64,000 bases of DNA, from IMG/VR virus record IMGVR_UViG_3300023174_004998, positions 32,551 through 96,550 of that record; one strand, 5' to 3'. The notes below the pieces were generated by a model that saw only the letters and a list, made by a program, of their open reading frames with translations, searched no databases and had not been told where the DNA came from. The stretch's first letter is position 1. Each line of letters starts with the position of its first letter. The translations under genes were made by a program, and so were the position numbers. Source of the DNA: a virus. Below, piece by piece: positions 5,849 through 52,374 of the stretch.

Positions 5849-6115
5849 TCACCGACGATCTACACGAGGACGTCGATCATCTCGACGGAAGTCTGGTCGG
5901 TAGCCTGCAAATCTGCGGCTATCCTCAGTCCACATATTTTTGGGTTCTTTGCCCGCTTCCAACTTACGGAACTGCTGGAACGGATATGACCGATTGTTGT
6001 AAAGATCTGCTGGATCATAGCGATAGCCATAGTCCACACAGAAGTTGAGATACTTGTCGAGGTCTTCCCAGACAGCACGACTACGAGGATTGGGTTTGAA
6101 CAGGGTTCGGCCCAT
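5849..6115 (-). CDS. Conserved T4-like phage hypothetical protein, 88 aa
   Basis: The protein has an aromatic core (WEDLDKYLNFCVDYGYRYD) and a very basic Arg/Asp-rich C-terminus. ATG 6115 is preceded by AAGGAAAC. From memory, small proteins of this pattern occur in T4-like cyanophages, without known function. The basic tail could bind nucleic acid. It lies between the QueD-like gene and the sugar operon. Confidence 0.7.
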   Translation of the reverse strand: MGRTLFKPNPRSRAVWEDLDKYLNFCVDYGYRYDPADLYNNRSYPFQQFRKLEAGKEPKNMWTEDSRRFAGYRPDFRRDDRRPRVDRR

Positions 6116-6126
6116 ATTAGTTTCCT

Positions 6127-6576
6127 TTAAATAACAATTGAAAGATTAGGACGGTGAGTATTATACTTAATGAGGCAGCCGTTCTCACCATCTTCGGCCA
6201 CTTCAATCCACACTGCACGACCGGGATAACGGCCTGCAATTTGTAGATACAGATCGTCTGCGATCATCTCGCAAGACTTCCAGTCAAGTTCTAAAACGGA
6301 ACTTTGACCATTATACAGCGACTCGAGCCATCGTTTAAACTGGATGAACTCGATGTCCCGGTCATTGTGGAACACATCGATCCACACCCGGAAATGAAAA
6401 ATGTGCCTATGAGGACTAGCAAGAAACGAAACATCATACTCTCCCGCGGTGCATAACGCTGGGTCTGTAGCCGCCGCAGGATATTTATGGATACCCTCTT
6501 TGCGGAATGTGATCCAGATCTTGCGCTCTGCACTTTGCATGATCCGATCTATGGTTTCTCTTTCGCTGGCAATCAT
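6127..6576 (-). CDS. QueD/6-pyruvoyl-tetrahydropterin-synthase-like protein
   Basis: 149 residues from ATG 6576, chosen because it overlaps the upstream stop as ATGA. The pattern fits the PTPS/QueD fold. There is a first His in GIHKYPAA, then a zinc-like H-x-H pair in SPHRHIFHFRVWIDV. IEFIQFKRWLES follows at the position of the family's DF-x-x-LK, and a C-terminal EDGENGCLI resembles the substrate-binding Glu region. QueD turns dihydroneopterin triphosphate, the FolE product, into carboxytetrahydropterin on the way to preQ0. The pairing with folE supports this. Similarity is structural-pattern level only; an unrelated conserved phage protein remains possible. Confidence 0.55.
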   Translation of the reverse strand: MIASERETIDRIMQSAERKIWITFRKEGIHKYPAAATDPALCTAGEYDVSFLASPHRHIFHFRVWIDVFHNDRDIEFIQFKRWLESLYNGQSSVLELDWKSCEMIADDLYLQIAGRYPGRAVWIEVAEDGENGCLIKYNTHRPNLSIVI

Positions 6577-11178: not shown

Positions 11179-12123
11179 TTAAATGCTTGATATTCTGCCT
11201 AGTGTTTGCCCGCCTCGTAAACTGGTTTTAGTTCCGGACTTCTGTAACTCCAACCAACTTACATTATTTTCCAAATCAAAACTTGATGCTATTCTAAAAC
11301 CAATTTTTTCAGCCATGGCCTTGACACGTTTGCCTGGTGTATAACAATAATACGAATTTTCAAAATTGTCAACCCCTATTGGATAATCGCAATTATTGTA
11401 AGTGAATATCACCATACCTCCGGGTCTAAGCAATAGATGTATTTCTTTGAGATACCGTTCAATCAACTCCAGAGGACGGAAGTTAAAAAAATCCACAGCC
11501 ACAATCAATCCAAATTGATGTTGTGGAAGTTGATGAAATATACGTTTCTCATTTTCTTTGACAGTGTAGTATCTTACCCGAGTTTGATATTCCGGGGTCC
11601 ACATCTTCTTGACATTTTTAAATAATTCTGGATCAGTGTCTACCAGGTACAATGGATCACACGCAGTGAGATGTTGAGAAATATCACCGTATGCCGGTCT
11701 TATTTCCATGGCTGGCCATTTCCAATGCCCAAGATCTCTAATCCTGCCAGAGAAGAAGTCCAGTGTTTCTTGTTGATATAAAAGTTTCTTAAAGTTGTGT
11801 CTATCTAAAATATAGTCAGCAGAGTCGTTGACGCCTTCTTGATAAACTGTTTGACTTTTAGCATAGTATGGTTCCTCTACACTTTTAACAAAGCCATCCA
11901 GAGCTTGTTTAAATCGCTGTATGTCCTGATCAATGGTGTCGAGTGTGTCTAATGCTAATTTTTTATTGTCCTTCATAGCGGTCTTGATGTTGTCAAAATC
12001 TATATTTTGCACATCAAGGTCAGTGATTACATGTTGTAGTAGGCTTTCAATTTCATCGTAGACATGCTTGACACTGAGATTGTCAACCATGAACTTATAG
12101 GTGATTAGTCGGCTGAGTTTCAT
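11179..12123 (-). CDS. Class I SAM-dependent methyltransferase-like protein
   Basis: 314 residues. The N-terminal 110 residues are helical and Asp/Lys/Gln-rich, probably coiled coil. The rest resembles a SAM methyltransferase: a YLVDTDPELF acidic strand end, LIVAVDFFNF at motif IV, and HLLLRPGGMVIFTYNN at the post-motif V strand. A classical GxGxG is not obvious. The C-terminus ends in a Ser/Gly/Arg-rich tail. The gene overlaps gp43 by ATGA. Substrate is unknown; DNA, a cap-like structure or a small molecule are possible. Confidence 0.65.
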   Translation of the reverse strand: MKLSRLITYKFMVDNLSVKHVYDEIESLLQHVITDLDVQNIDFDNIKTAMKDNKKLALDTLDTIDQDIQRFKQALDGFVKSVEEPYYAKSQTVYQEGVNDSADYILDRHNFKKLLYQQETLDFFSGRIRDLGHWKWPAMEIRPAYGDISQHLTACDPLYLVDTDPELFKNVKKMWTPEYQTRVRYYTVKENEKRIFHQLPQHQFGLIVAVDFFNFRPLELIERYLKEIHLLLRPGGMVIFTYNNCDYPIGVDNFENSYYCYTPGKRVKAMAEKIGFRIASSFDLENNVSWLELQKSGTKTSLRGGQTLGRISSI

Positions 12124-14780
12124 TCAAATGTAAACAATGATTGGAAAGTGTTTGTTGTGTTGGTAGCTGATCCTAGATCCCATTCTAACACTCCCAACAA
12201 GTTGTTGATCTTTTGATCTACCACAGTGGCTTCCATTTCTGCATCGTCAAATGGCAATTCTTTAAACCATTGCGGCAAGTGCATCTCATCTGTGGGGTAG
12301 CCAATTGAAGTCCATCCCAGGGCATTGCTCTTGAGTTTGCATACAATGGTCTTCATACCATCAACGATTTGCAATGAATAGTTATCGCTGTTCATCCGAC
12401 GCATGTTGTTCCAGTTCATGGCTGCTCGCACATGTCCAGGCATGTTGGCACGACCTTCACGTTCTTCTTTCTTTTGATACTGAGTGAGATTGTTTACACG
12501 TTTGGGACTACCCTTCTCCCAACCTGGCCGCTCGGTAAATTCGTATTTGAATTTGCGTATAATTTCAATGATCTCATCTCGTTGACTACCGTTGAGCACA
12601 CGCTCTAACAAGTCCCACAAAAAGTCTTGAATGACTTTGGGTGTATCGGATCTCTTTAAATCCAAGCCCATGGCTTTGATTGATCCTGTTTTTCCATCAA
12701 CGTCCTTGCGCTTGCCTTCTTTGTCATAGATATTGACGGCATAACGTTTCTTGGTAATGAATAAACTGCGACCTGCTACAAGTTCACGACCGCCTTTGAT
12801 AATTGAACCCATTTCTCTAGGGCAATGAAATGCTCGCTCCATGAAGCCTGGAAAACTATCGTTGACTTGATCAGCAATACTGTCGTAGAGTTGTACGCAC
12901 ATTTCTTTTGACCATTCCATGCGACCTTCTTTGACTTCTTTAGACAATACTGGCCAGGCACTAAAGTATACAGAATCTGTGTCACCATAGATGATAGCTT
13001 CGCCTACGTGATCATACTTGCCAGTGATACATTCGTTGACATAGGCATCCATGTGATAGGCAATGGCACGTCCTGTCAGCGTGGTTGATTGTCCAATGCG
13101 TTTGTCAAAGAATCTACAACCAGGGTTCAAGATGGCACCATACAGTGAATTCAAGTTAATCTTCTTGACCAACTGACGCTTGTCCCAAAACTCTTGCTCT
13201 GCTTTATCTGTAGATTCTTTTAGTTTGGCCTGTAGTTCTTTGCGTTCTCTATACCAACGTGCCAGCAAGCCGGGAATAACACCTTCACTTTCAAAGGTAA
13301 AGATTGTGCCATTGGCCGACAGGATCCAAGGCTGATTGCTATCAAAGATCATCTTCCATACTTCTGGAGCAGAGTGTACAGTTTCTTCTCCATCCTGCCA
13401 GTCTATGGTGATCTCTGTGCCACGTTGTTGTTCCATCACTGCTGTGTATTCAAGGCTTCCAAACAAACCTTCCCAGGCCGCCGCAAAGCTGGACCCAGAG
13501 TTCATTTTGTCCCGGATATACCTATCAGTCATTGTTGGCCGGAGTTGTCCGATAATGGTTTCTGGCGCCATGTTAAGGGCTCTAATAGCCGAGGGATACA
13601 GCGAGTTGATGTCAATGGCACCGACCCATTCGTGGATGCCTTTTTTGGGATAAGCAACATAGGCACCTGCGGCTTGTGTATCTTCATCTGTGAGTCTCTC
13701 TTTGCGGTTGGGAACTACTAGTCCACGTTCGTGGGCTTCATTGATGATGGCCTGTTCAGTTACAGCCACAGCACCCATGGTTGTTTGCAACAACACAGTG
13801 TTGGCATGTGCTAGTTCGTTGGCAAGGTCTAGAAATCGTAACTTTTTGTCCAAGCGGGCAAGCAACATGGTGTCCTGCCTGTTGTAGTCGATGAATGTCT
13901 TGAAGTTTTGATTGTATAGCTGATCCAGCGTTCCCTCAAACTGAGTTTTTCTCTCTCCAAGCTCATGATCGCCGATGGCATCCAGCGAGTAGGAATGACG
14001 TTCTTCATATGTGTATTTCCTATAAAGTTGCATATAGTCCATGTGTACTCGACCAATCAAGTCAAAGGTCAAGTTTTCTGCACCAAAGCGTTCAAAGGTG
14101 CGTTGCTTGGGAAATTGATTCCACAAACACATGCGACGTGTGTCGTCTTTGCTGAGTACACGAGTGATACGTTGTACTGTATACGGTATATCAAAGCCCT
14201 CTGAGTTCCAGCCACTCAACACATCTGCATCGTCGATGAGATCCAAGAACGTGTTCAACATGTCCTCTTCACGATCAAACAGCATGGTATTTTCAAACTG
14301 GCCAGCGATCTCTTTGGCAGTTTCTGCGCTCATTGACTTGGGAGGAATTACCAAGGTAACCAACTGGTCCAACCAATCAAGATACAGAGATATAGCAGTG
14401 ATAGGGTTGAATGGATCGTCAGGCTTGGAGAATCCACGCTCGGGGTCAAAGTCTACCTCAATGTCAAAGAAACATGTTTGCAGTCGAGGTGCATCCTGGC
14501 CTTTGTAGTTGTCTTCAAAGCATCGAAACACAGGATTGATATCCGACTCATAGATACCTTTGCCTGATTGTATGCGTAGTTCTTTGCGGAACTCTTTGTT
14601 GTTGCGGGTGGAAAATCTTGAAACAGGGTTGCCGTAGATACTACGGAACTTGCCTCGAGGATCATCATAGTAGAACACGTATGTGGCTGGGTACTCGCGA
14701 TACTCGCGAAGACCATTCCGGCGTTCTACTACATGAATGCGATCGTGTTCACGATCAAATAGTGCGTCTACGTAACTCAT
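12120..14780 (-). CDS. 43: DNA polymerase, family B, T4 gp43-like
   Basis: 886 residues with all family B motifs. Exonuclease motifs are FFDIEVDFD, LSGWNSEGFDIPY and YNRQDTMLL. Polymerase motifs are A (DINSLYPSAIRALN), B (KKINLNSLYGAILN) and C (YGDTDSVYF). Both activities should be intact. The ATG at 14780 has CTGGAG seven nt upstream. The gene is followed by a methyltransferase and gp45. Its own sigma70-like promoter overlaps the end of the DsbA-like gene, giving it early expression. Confidence 0.95.
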   Translation of the reverse strand: MSYVDALFDREHDRIHVVERRNGLREYREYPATYVFYYDDPRGKFRSIYGNPVSRFSTRNNKEFRKELRIQSGKGIYESDINPVFRCFEDNYKGQDAPRLQTCFFDIEVDFDPERGFSKPDDPFNPITAISLYLDWLDQLVTLVIPPKSMSAETAKEIAGQFENTMLFDREEDMLNTFLDLIDDADVLSGWNSEGFDIPYTVQRITRVLSKDDTRRMCLWNQFPKQRTFERFGAENLTFDLIGRVHMDYMQLYRKYTYEERHSYSLDAIGDHELGERKTQFEGTLDQLYNQNFKTFIDYNRQDTMLLARLDKKLRFLDLANELAHANTVLLQTTMGAVAVTEQAIINEAHERGLVVPNRKERLTDEDTQAAGAYVAYPKKGIHEWVGAIDINSLYPSAIRALNMAPETIIGQLRPTMTDRYIRDKMNSGSSFAAAWEGLFGSLEYTAVMEQQRGTEITIDWQDGEETVHSAPEVWKMIFDSNQPWILSANGTIFTFESEGVIPGLLARWYRERKELQAKLKESTDKAEQEFWDKRQLVKKINLNSLYGAILNPGCRFFDKRIGQSTTLTGRAIAYHMDAYVNECITGKYDHVGEAIIYGDTDSVYFSAWPVLSKEVKEGRMEWSKEMCVQLYDSIADQVNDSFPGFMERAFHCPREMGSIIKGGRELVAGRSLFITKKRYAVNIYDKEGKRKDVDGKTGSIKAMGLDLKRSDTPKVIQDFLWDLLERVLNGSQRDEIIEIIRKFKYEFTERPGWEKGSPKRVNNLTQYQKKEEREGRANMPGHVRAAMNWNNMRRMNSDNYSLQIVDGMKTIVCKLKSNALGWTSIGYPTDEMHLPQWFKELPFDDAEMEATVVDQKINNLLGVLEWDLGSATNTTNTFQSLFTFE

Positions 14781-48480: not shown

Positions 48481-49398
48481 TTATAATCCTGTTAGTTCTA
48501 CCAAAGTGGCACTGAGATTGATTTCTTGATCAGCTACCAATGGAATATTGACATAGCCATTACGGATAATCACAATGGCCTGATCTTGTTTGTGTACATC
48601 TTTGGTCCAGAGATCTAAATTATCATACATCCAACGGAAAACATCTTCCATTTCTTCAGGACGCACAGTGGAGCATATTAACTTTCTAGCTTCTAAGATC
48701 TTGCCTGCTTTGAACAAATTTACTGCATCAATCTTCCAGTCACGCACTCCACCTTCGTCGCCGTGTGGAGCAGTGAGTTGCCCTTCCTGGCTGTTCATCT
48801 GGCAAAGATTCAAACACTTTCGCATGTCTGGGTATGTTGCTTTGACATAGGTGTCGAGTGTGTCTAAATCAAACTCTACTGACTCTGAGACCAAAACAGT
48901 GGCCATACGTGCTGTAAATTCAGTAACGTCAACACGCTCAATATGAAATCCTTGGCATCTTGAATGAAGTGCGGGGATGACACGATTAGGATAGTTACAA
49001 GTAAGAATAAAACGAGCCGAAGCATGATAGGTCTCCATGACACCACGTAGTGCGGCCTGACCATTGGGACTGATGTAATCAGCCTCGTCTAGCAACACAA
49101 TTTTAAATGCACCAAATGGCATTGTTTGCACAAAGCCCGTGATTTTGTCGCGGATAGTGTCTACAGAGTTTTCACGCGACGCATTGATCTCTAATACATC
49201 ATAGTCATCAATGCCCAAGTTGTTGATCAAGATTTTTGCCAAGGTAGTTTTGCCCACACCCGGCGCACCACTAAACAACAAGTGCGGAATAGATTTAGAT
49301 TTAACCCAACCTGCCACTTGTTGTCGTTGTGCGTCATCGCGGAATACATAACCGTCTAGGTCACGTGGGCGATATTTTTCTGTCCAAAGTTCTTTCAT
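48481..49398 (-). CDS. 44: Clamp-loader ATPase, T4 gp44-like
   Basis: 305 residues from ATG 49398 (ATGA overlap). It is an RFC-small-subunit-type AAA+ protein with MKELWTEKYRPRDLDGYVF, Walker A SGAPGVGKTTLA (43-54), LLDEADYISP and the SRC motif in ALHSRCQG. It loads gp45 with gp62 in T4; a gp62 gene is not seen in this window. Confidence 0.93.
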   Translation of the reverse strand: MKELWTEKYRPRDLDGYVFRDDAQRQQVAGWVKSKSIPHLLFSGAPGVGKTTLAKILINNLGIDDYDVLEINASRENSVDTIRDKITGFVQTMPFGAFKIVLLDEADYISPNGQAALRGVMETYHASARFILTCNYPNRVIPALHSRCQGFHIERVDVTEFTARMATVLVSESVEFDLDTLDTYVKATYPDMRKCLNLCQMNSQEGQLTAPHGDEGGVRDWKIDAVNLFKAGKILEARKLICSTVRPEEMEDVFRWMYDNLDLWTKDVHKQDQAIVIIRNGYVNIPLVADQEINLSATLVELTGL

Positions 49399-49595
49399 TC
49401 TGCTCTTCCTGTAGTGCAACTATCGCTCCACAATTCTTGTGCCTGCTTGCGATATTGTTCAAGTTCATATTCGTTTAGTTTAACACGATATGCTTCCTCT
49501 GTCAAGGCATGCCAGCCACAACATTTACCCGTTGGGCTCCGGCCGCAACCACAGGATGTTCCGCCATCTTTGATTTGGTCTGCTCTTATTTGCAT
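49395..49595 (-). CDS. Small CDGSH-like Fe-S protein candidate, 66 aa
   Basis: Contains SCGCGRSPTGKCCGWH, close to the CDGSH pattern C-x-C-x2-S-x-x-x-P-x-C-D-G-x-H but with one residue fewer before the third Cys and CG rather than CDG. A helical Glu-rich C-terminus follows. AAAGGAAAT precedes the ATG. If real, it would bind a 2Fe-2S cluster with 3 Cys + 1 His; a zinc site is an alternative. Confidence 0.55.
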   Translation of the reverse strand: MQIRADQIKDGGTSCGCGRSPTGKCCGWHALTEEAYRVKLNEYELEQYRKQAQELWSDSCTTGRAE

Positions 49596-49603
49596 TATTT
49601 CCT

Positions 49604-49750
49604 TTAACGTATTAAGTTTTTGATAGTTTTTATTAAATTATAAAATCTTGTACGGTAAATGTCAACATATGAGGGATGATGCGGGCATCGACCTTGACGC
49701 CAGGCGCAATCAGGAGTGTAGTATTGCCCGCAGTGTTTACAACGATCCAT
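49604..49750 (-). CDS. Small zinc-ribbon-like protein, 48 aa
   Basis: ATG 49750 to TAA 49604, beginning MDRCKHCGQYYTPDCAW and with RCPHHP, giving C-x2-C plus C-x6-C-x-H-H. A basic/aromatic tail follows. TAATG overlaps the groES-like stop. It is probably a small zinc-binding regulator or structural protein. Confidence 0.65.
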   Translation of the reverse strand: MDRCKHCGQYYTPDCAWRQGRCPHHPSYVDIYRTRFYNLIKTIKNLIR

Positions 49751-50124
49751 TATCTTCCAGAAACGGCTTCTGACATAGTGTCATCAGATCCTGGGTGTTC
49801 GTCGGAGACCAACAGTATGTCTTTGGGATCTATTTTGCGAATGGTTTTTTTGCCTTCGTTGTCTTCGATGTCCAAACCGCGAGTCCACCGACCGTGTGCT
49901 ACACAAATCCATTGTCCCACTGTGACATCTTGTTGCTCAGGGCCAATTTCGTACACTCGGCCCCAACGTGGTCGAATGCCTTCGGATTTTCCATTGTCGT
50001 TCATCAGAATAATTCCACTGGAAAGCTGTCGCCCAGTGAACTCCATGTCGCACACTAAAATGTTATCGCGCAGAGCTTTGATTTTTTCAATTCGATGTGG
50101 TTCAAATGCGGCTTTGGTATTCAT
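49750..50124 (-). CDS. GroES-like co-chaperonin (T4 gp31-like role)
   Basis: 124 residues with the cpn10 pattern: KALRDNILVCDMEFTGR at the first strand, SSGIILMNDNG at the mobile-loop/strand region, and WGRVYEIGPEQQDVTVGQWICV. T4-like phages use such a protein with GroEL to fold the major capsid protein. The C-terminus extends about 25 residues beyond the domain. Overlaps the next gene (TAATG). Confidence 0.85.
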   Translation of the reverse strand: MNTKAAFEPHRIEKIKALRDNILVCDMEFTGRQLSSGIILMNDNGKSEGIRPRWGRVYEIGPEQQDVTVGQWICVAHGRWTRGLDIEDNEGKKTIRKIDPKDILLVSDEHPGSDDTMSEAVSGR

Positions 50125-50579
50125 TAGATTTTATTCACTCCTGATTTTTCTTGAGCTTGTTGTCTTGGGGTTTTCAAAGGTTCTTGTTTGATCTGTCGAG
50201 CCTTGGCAATAGCGGCTGCCAGACCACCTTCTGGCAATCCTGATGTTTCCACCGGTGCTGGCTCTTCAATCACTGGTTCCTGGAATTCTTCAACTTCAGG
50301 CGCTGAAGTTTCTTGTGATAACACATCTGCTTCGGCCATTTCTCTAGCATGTCTACGACTGGTAGGAACTTGAGAATCTGATACGTTGGTAACTTGACGA
50401 TTGTATTGTCGATTTACCTGTTGGTTTCTTGACGCCACAGACCTATTGTTGCTGTCAAGTACATCACCGCGAGCATTGACCCGCATGTTTCCAACTGCAC
50501 GAGTATTTTCGTTTTGCAGTAATAATGCACCAAGATCTACGATCTTTCCTTGTGCAGTTCTATAAACTTTTTTTGTCAT
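50124..50579 (-). CDS. Conserved T4-like phage protein, 151 aa
   Basis: ATG 50579 has AAGGAG nine nt upstream. The N-terminal domain (KVYRTAQGKIVDLGALLLQ, AVGNMRVNARGDVLDSNN) is, from memory, well conserved in T4-like cyanophages. The C-terminal half is Glu/Pro-rich and probably disordered. Function unknown; likely virion or assembly related because it is coupled to the GroES-like gene. Confidence 0.72.
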   Translation of the reverse strand: MTKKVYRTAQGKIVDLGALLLQNENTRAVGNMRVNARGDVLDSNNRSVASRNQQVNRQYNRQVTNVSDSQVPTSRRHAREMAEADVLSQETSAPEVEEFQEPVIEEPAPVETSGLPEGGLAAAIAKARQIKQEPLKTPRQQAQEKSGVNKI

Positions 50580-50607: not shown

Positions 50608-51126
50608 TTAACGCAAGAATTCTCTAGCATCTAAATCATAATACATGGAATTGATCCTGTGTACACCCAACAAATACAGCACATAACTGGCTACCGAACT
50701 ACCTCGCCCAACTCCCCAAATCACATGATTTTCTTGCATGACATCCACTAGATATTTTAGATATCGTAGCAAATTGAACAAATCACGCTCTTGGAATAAC
50801 AATAACTCTTCGCCTACTCGCTGTAGCTCAACATCAGTTTTGCATAAGTTTAACACATGAGACGCAATGTCTAATTGCTTGTACTCATCGGGCATGTACC
50901 ATGTGCTCTGGCAAAGATGATCATAGGCTTCTTGAGTGAGATCATCTTTCGCCGGTTGACAGTATTCCAAAAAGGTTGGCACATTTTCCAGTATATGCGC
51001 CATGCTTTCAAGATCGATCTTGTCCACCAGCATGCCTTGAAACACAGCGAGATCATGCCCCTGCATCAAAAGATTGCAGACATCATCTTCTGTGTATATT
51101 TGTTCACCAAACTTATTCTTTATCAT
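50608..51126 (-). CDS. Fragment related to DNA polymerase III alpha (DnaE), 172 aa
   Basis: The C-terminal part (WGVGRGSSVASYVLYLLGVH, then YYDLDAREFLR) matches the PGRGSGAGSLV...FERFL segment of bacterial DnaE, just before the catalytic aspartates. The N-terminal part is helical, resembling the thumb/palm lead-in. It stops before DxDxD and lacks a PHP domain, so it cannot be a full polymerase. Similar short pieces are, from memory, seen in T4-like cyanophages. ATGA overlap with the upstream gene shows it is expressed. Confidence 0.75.
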   Translation of the reverse strand: MIKNKFGEQIYTEDDVCNLLMQGHDLAVFQGMLVDKIDLESMAHILENVPTFLEYCQPAKDDLTQEAYDHLCQSTWYMPDEYKQLDIASHVLNLCKTDVELQRVGEELLLFQERDLFNLLRYLKYLVDVMQENHVIWGVGRGSSVASYVLYLLGVHRINSMYYDLDAREFLR

Positions 51127-51706
51127 CTTTGCGAAATGCTACCACAATGTTTTCTTTGTCGTTTTCTTCTTGGTCCCAGTTTAGTTCAAGACTTGGCCAG
51201 TTAGCAGTTTTGGTAGCAATACTGACCACTTTGCCCGCTGTTGGTTTGACGTCAGAACAAACAGGATCAGATGAATTCCACCAACCGCGTTCTTGAAAAG
51301 GGCCAATGGTTTCTGTTTCTGTTTGACTGTAAGTGATATTTTCTCCCAGTTCAGAACTGAGTTTTAGTTGTGTCATCAGTATCCGACCTTCCATTACCGA
51401 ATCTAACTTAGAGTATAACATCATCCCAATGATCTGGTCAACGGGTTGTTCGGGCAAACTTACCGTTCTCAACCCAGCGGCTTCTAGGCGTTTGATCGCG
51501 GCCTTTTCTCGACTGTCAACAAAAACAGAATTCTGCATTTGCACAAACAAAATATATTTGAGTCTTTCCAGTGCAATGTTTTGTTCTCTATGATCCTTGG
51601 TTCCTGTTACCATTTCACATCGCACCGAATAGCAGTTAAACATTACCTGGTCATTCCAGTAAACTGCTGATAGAAATTCTGCTGGGTATTCTATTTTGAC
51701 GTTCAT
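51113..51706 (-). CDS. Conserved T4-like phage hypothetical protein, 197 aa
   Basis: Contains MNVKIEYPAEFLSAVYWND, QNIALERLKYILFVQMQNSV and PVDQIIGMMLYSKLDSVMEG blocks, from memory conserved among T4-like cyanophages. The C-terminus has WWNSSDP and is acidic. Possibly an RNA- or virion-related protein; function unknown. Confidence 0.72.
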   Translation of the reverse strand: MNVKIEYPAEFLSAVYWNDQVMFNCYSVRCEMVTGTKDHREQNIALERLKYILFVQMQNSVFVDSREKAAIKRLEAAGLRTVSLPEQPVDQIIGMMLYSKLDSVMEGRILMTQLKLSSELGENITYSQTETETIGPFQERGWWNSSDPVCSDVKPTAGKVVSIATKTANWPSLELNWDQEENDKENIVVAFRKDDKE

Positions 51707-51933: not shown

Positions 51934-52374
51934 TTATAGGTCTCCAGGTTTTCTATTTTCTGAATAGTAGGGATCAAATGTACCACCGGGGTATCGACTT
52001 TCTAGTTTGCGTACATTTTCAGCTATGACATCATTGGGATCAAGATTGAGTGCTCTGCAAGCATTGATCCAATACCACATGATATCTCCCAGCTCACGTT
52101 TCATGTGAAACACAGCTTCTTCATTGAGTGCTTTGCCCTGGAAGAAAATCTTTTTGGGAATCTCGCAAAATTCCCCTGTTTCGGCTGCCATACCCAAGGC
52201 ACCAGTGAGCAACAGCGACACATTGACGTCTGGACCCTGAGTCATTACACCATCTACAACTTCATGATTGGTGTTGATTCTATCCAGGGTGTCGGTAAAC
52301 ACGTCTAAGTCATTGCTGGCTGGGCTGGTTACCGTTTCAACAAATTTGGTATATCGATTTAAATCAATTTGCAT
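51934..52374 (-). CDS. mazG: MazG-like nucleotide pyrophosphohydrolase
   Basis: 146 residues with the MazG helical pattern: AETGEFCEIPKKIFF (E-x2-E-type metal ligands) and KRELGDIMWYWINACRALN (ELGD). It hydrolyses NTPs or alarmones such as ppGpp; phage MazG proteins are common in aquatic T4-like phages. It is the first gene of a cluster leading to gp44, behind a hairpin that sequesters its ribosome binding site. Confidence 0.88.
   Translation of the reverse strand: MQIDLNRYTKFVETVTSPASNDLDVFTDTLDRINTNHEVVDGVMTQGPDVNVSLLLTGALGMAAETGEFCEIPKKIFFQGKALNEEAVFHMKRELGDIMWYWINACRALNLDPNDVIAENVRKLESRYPGGTFDPYYSENRKPGDL

Follow-up and report, generated by a model that had tools for sequence, protein, structure and literature searches.

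The open reading frame (ORF) at positions 50608-51126 (minus strand, 172 aa) of the window, by which we mean the whole analysed stretch of 64,000 nucleotides from the 96.5-kb virus record IMGVR_UViG_3300023174_004998, is quite probably the N-terminal half (N-half) of a phage-specific, minimal DNA polymerase III (Pol III) alpha subunit encoded in trans, the two halves of which would most likely rebuild one active site used in gap filling or repair. The earlier note had considered this ORF a lone DnaE fragment without catalysis; the catalytic half (C-half) proved to be a separate gene, of family phrog_11778, which all large related genomes examined contained wherever the corresponding region was covered. 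Homology, the precise split point, the conservation of active-site residues and the joint occurrence of both halves were computed here, and from them we infer the assembly of the halves into an active enzyme and its role.

Identity and conservation of the N-half

The ORF was complete from ATG to stop and comprised a helical lead-in followed by the first part of the palm. Its residues 6-172 matched positions 12-171 of phrog_11127, a family of 171 aa annotated as DNA polymerase (1.7e-42), which represents a full-length family match, and residues 101-171 matched positions 24-94 of the 260 in the Pfam Pol III alpha model PF07733 with 30 bits, above the curated cut-off of 23.9 bits. NCBIfam models of Pol III alpha or error-prone DnaE were matched far under their full-length cut-offs, as expected because the N-half is a piece only; one further NCBIfam match, to DUF126, was at chance level. 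The family C palm motif PGRGS, already claimed in the earlier note, was present as GVGRGSS at residues 138-144 (50695-50715, minus strand), and corresponds to the triphosphate-binding GS motif of a Pol beta-like palm. The C-terminus (...LDAREFLR) lay immediately ahead of the place of PDIDIDF and, because the chain ends just before that position, the 172-aa ORF holds no catalytic aspartates, as the same note had stated.

Relatives of the N-half were encoded in 104 phage records (tblastn, E <= 0.01), mostly of large phages (PA5oct, Paride, Atu_ph07, Phosso, Munch, GAP32, CBB, RaK2, and 121Q). The family was found in phages of many hosts, with ~36-54% identity over the matched part. Matches in Enterococcus phages (E ~5e-3) were set apart by their annotation, which indicated another kind of Pol III alpha gene. 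In IMG/VR, 93 loci with an N-half relative were found and 80 were kept for analysis; the length of the N-half ranged from 157 to 183 aa in all 80. G138, G140, R141, G142, S143, and S144 (GxGRGSS) were invariant across 68 N-half sequences, and the Arg that precedes FLN in bacterial alpha (R390 in the aligned E. coli sequence) was replaced in the N-half family by a conserved Glu. Comparison with the two closest relatives, 80% identical, gave a dN/dS of ~0.08 (dN 0.155 and 0.121, dS 1.9 and 1.6), an approximate value since synonymous sites were near saturation, indicating purifying selection.

Genomic context of the N-half

The start of the N-half was overlapped by 14 bases by an upstream ORF of 197 aa with no assigned function (51113-51706, minus strand), for which no PHROG match was obtained; a similar ORF was recognised in 29/84 related loci. 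An upstream frame ended near the start of the N-half in 69/80 loci, often 4 or 14 bases into it. Downstream, on the same strand, lay an ORF of family phrog_14844 with no assigned function (50124-50573, 149 aa from the ATG at 50573; a similar ORF in 81/84 related loci), a gp31/GroES-like head-morphogenesis co-chaperonin (49750-50124; phrog_931, 1.9e-12; 82/84 loci) and the large subunit of a gp44/RFC-type clamp loader (48481-49419; 77/84 loci). A MazG-like pyrophosphatase was encoded at 51934-52374 (minus strand; PF03819, 2.3e-8; 41/84 loci), so that the proximity of both gp44 and mazG pointed out in the earlier note was corroborated. The N-half was accompanied by both the gp44-type clamp loader and the gp31/GroES-like protein in each of the 51 long loci. 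Gene order in annotated phages was mazG, N-half, gp31-like, gp44, and PhoH, interspersed with other genes; in Munch the order was N-half, chaperonin, and clamp loader.

The family B DNA polymerase that had been ascribed to this phage was real. It is a protein of 886 aa encoded at 12120-14780 (minus strand; PF00136, 3.2e-33; phrog_262, 6.7e-195), presumed to be the main replicase, and it shares the genome of the N-half with the RFC-type clamp loader. In PA5oct-like phages (L003; LR588166.1, MIJ3) an intein or homing endonuclease divides the family B polymerase (PMC6892783), which is a different kind of split from that between the Pol III alpha halves.

The catalytic C-half

A search of the relatives with PF17657 (Pol III fingers) yielded weak matches to another small protein, encoded at a remote locus. 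This C-half, of ~190 aa and belonging to phrog_11778, was located tens to hundreds of kb from the N-half in related genomes. After M and a few residues it started with DIDID, followed by HNxGVY, KxDFLN, RPxK, and FKKSHA, which is the order of motifs in the remainder of the alpha core; D4, D6, D8, R12, H35, K67, D69, R137, P138, K140, and H170 were invariant in 93 C-halves. The N-half ended in ...EFL(R/K) and the C-half opened at DIDID, the break being placed in the linker between them. No natural fusion or adjacency of the two halves occurred among the loci examined; the case for their partnership consequently depends on the fold, the position of the split and the co-occurrence of the halves.

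The closest of the large relatives, a record of 343.6 kb whose N-half is 81% identical, carried the C-half at 5849-6418. A profile search found no C-half in the 96.5-kb record of the present phage. It is unlikely to have been overlooked through divergence: the profile scored 3e-71 or better in every record where a C-half was found, and its surroundings were absent as well, with a match in the 96.5-kb record for only one of the 26 ORFs in the 20 kb around the C-half of the nearest relative (weak, a paralogue). Because these surroundings are also missing, the C-half of this phage most likely lies in the unsequenced part of its genome, the record being a fragment if the phage resembles its relatives. 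As to a neighbouring frame completing the polymerase, a possibility raised in the earlier note, none was present in the window or in the rest of the record, but the completing gene does exist, at a remote position, in the relatives.

Upstream of the C-half gene, a zinc-finger-like protein with no assigned function (phrog_11058; L202:5118-5849 and homologues) was encoded in genomes G001 and G003 and in Munch, and an ORF related to it occupied the upstream side in genome G004.

Comparison with Pol III alpha

Profile searches of the PDB aligned the N-half to residues 325-392 of E. coli alpha and the C-half, collinearly, to residues 403-420, 608-641, and 739-767; single blocks of the C-half are weak alone and the argument is founded on their order and on the motifs. 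No other PDB family outscored Pol III alpha for either half. Between the aligned blocks E. coli alpha was longer by ~100 residues in the thumb region and by ~87 residues in the fingers (641 to 739). The thumb and much of the fingers, domains looked for in a family C enzyme, were absent from both halves by alignment, including the YQEQ/RRAxxKK part of the fingers, and no PHP match was obtained in either half. The catalytic aspartates, looked for in the same chain, sat in the separate C-half. No further DnaE palm or fingers piece above the Pfam cut-off was detected in four deposited complete phage genomes.

Predicted structures gave a concordant picture. For the AlphaFold model of the N-half (pLDDT 83.7), PDB ranks 1-12 were all Pol III alpha chains, with Foldseek E-values that were weak (0.17 at best) yet uniformly for this protein. 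For the model of one C-half (pLDDT 91.7), ranks 1-11 were Pol III alpha chains, the best being the Taq ternary complex 3E0D (E 9.5e-4). As in bacterial DnaE (E. coli 2HNH, Taq 3E0D), the N-half holds the palm start with PGRGS and the C-half the three aspartates and the KxD, RPG-like and KSHA motifs. In contrast to bacterial DnaE, the split enzyme consists of two chains, lacks the PHP, thumb, clamp-binding, OB, and tau-binding parts, and has largely reduced fingers.

Joint occurrence of the two halves

Among 18 records with an N-half, the C-half was found in 10/10 above 140 kb and in one of 127 kb; the seven without it measured 68-138 kb. Conversely, 5 of 17 records with a C-half contained the N-half, and two more were matched only via a PHP-less DnaE-like protein (see below). 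The neighbour gp44 was checked in 14 of these 17 records: all four with gp44 had the N-half (4/4), in contrast with none of the ten without it (0/10). Two large records with a C-half and no N-half (280 and 199 kb) also lacked gp44 and, because this neighbour was missing too, they probably do not cover the N-half region. Each large genome tested that had one half carried the other, except where the record lacked the flanking region. The numbers of phage records with N-half and C-half agreed almost one for one by host genus (Escherichia 34/34, Pseudomonas 11/11, Salmonella 8/8, and Erwinia 8/8), with the exception of the weak N-half matches in phages of Enterococcus, a genus of which no record appeared among those named for the C-half.

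Discussion

We propose that the N-half would supply the triphosphate-binding part of the palm (GVGRGSS), and that the C-half, encoded by a distant gene outside the 96.5-kb record, would supply the metal-binding aspartates, the KxD lysine, and reduced fingers. The two chains would most likely associate and rebuild one nucleotidyltransferase site, an assembled pair being the simplest reading because neither half alone has the full site. Working beside the family B replicase, the split enzyme would most likely serve in gap filling or repair rather than in bulk replication, since it has lost the thumb, the PHP domain, the parts that bind clamp and tau, and much of the fingers; ordinary processive polymerisation by the pair is doubtful given the ~100 thumb and ~87 fingers residues that it lacks. 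Counted against the split enzyme were the absence of the C-half from the record, the lack of any fusion or adjacency, the conserved Glu where bacterial alpha has Arg ahead of FLN, the loss of thumb and fingers segments, and the weak Foldseek E-values of the N-half.

The halves might also rebuild a nucleotidyltransferase site that is not a template-directed DNA polymerase and instead transfers nucleotides to small molecules, proteins or ends, or that serves as a regulatory dNTP-binding module of the phage replisome. Such a reading would fit the loss of the thumb and of the YQEQ/RRAxxKK part of the fingers, which leaves little more than a Pol beta-like palm that includes the GS motif and the aspartates, the position of the N-half gene beside a clamp-loader gene in 51/51 long loci, and the presence of a full family B replicase in the genome. 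However, KxD, RPxK, and the FKKSHA fingers helix are retained and invariant or nearly so, as expected if a template-primer is bound, and the neighbours of the C-half point to no other substrate. We regard this as possible but rather unlikely, and assign the same limited likelihood to its specific form, a reconstituted palm-only nucleotidyltransferase with no DNA polymerisation job, e.g., a dNTP sensor or an end-modifying factor tied to the clamp loader; if true, the Pol III fold would have been put to a new use.

Clearly less probable is a non-catalytic role of the N-half on its own, as an effector that would bind nucleotides, primer-template, the host clamp or host Pol III. The ORF itself is devoid of catalytic residues and is retained under purifying selection, but a conserved gene of the same phages encodes exactly the missing remainder, and the triphosphate-binding motif is invariant although an inhibitor need not keep it; the binding of the host clamp or inhibition of the host replisome proposed in the earlier note received no support from our analysis. 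That the ORF is what decay has left of a dnaE gene acquired from a host or a phage is extremely improbable, although its short length and weak similarity to bacterial DnaE might suggest it. The single length class of all 80 relatives, the low dN/dS, the spread over many hosts in spite of modest identity, and the conserved synteny led us to reject decay, in line with the earlier view that this DnaE-related piece is kept.

The split, minimal Pol III alpha preferred here was already described in 2021, and this phage adds another member. Iyer et al. (Viruses 2021; PMC7824862) reported a minimal Pol III alpha made of two distantly encoded proteins, one with the NTP-binding part and the other with the parts that bind metal and template, in jumbo phages equipped with a family B polymerase as well; they suggested one-strand synthesis or repair. 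Equating their split enzyme with phrog_11127 (N-half) and phrog_11778 (C-half) by its description and the phages named there, our case has in common with their group 2.2 jumbo phages the N-half family, a family B polymerase together with an RFC-type clamp loader and, most likely, the same kind of partner encoded at a distance. Relative to what is described there, it differs only in being another uncultivated phage, with the C-half most likely beyond the sequenced fragment. The same N-half corresponds to CBB_328 of Pectobacterium phage CBB, a truncated alpha of 172 aa (PMC5259590), and to gp316 of Agrobacterium phage Atu_ph07, called a Pol III alpha subunit (PMC6102473); the passages on these two proteins mention no catalytic partner, in contrast with the present case. 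No experimental work on the split enzyme was found in the papers examined.

Some phages with a C-half (L090, L288, and L289) additionally encoded, ~5-6 kb from it, a DnaE-like protein of 563-574 aa that forms a single chain and has no PHP domain. Genome G002 contained this protein (L090:496-2187, minus strand) together with both split halves and the family B polymerase. It resembles the split pair in having a family C palm and fingers and no PHP domain, and differs from it in consisting of one chain that retains an insert the size of a thumb and the fingers motif RRAFAKK. Its presence qualifies the statement in PMC7824862, as worded for such phages, that they have no other Pol III domains.

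The present instance contributes joint-occurrence and structural evidence and no new principle. Where a phage of this kind shows a lone DnaE piece, the other half should be looked for. The class of enzymes as a whole, if active, would represent a family C core cut down to ~360 residues and divided between two chains, with a bearing on the origin of Pol III alpha.
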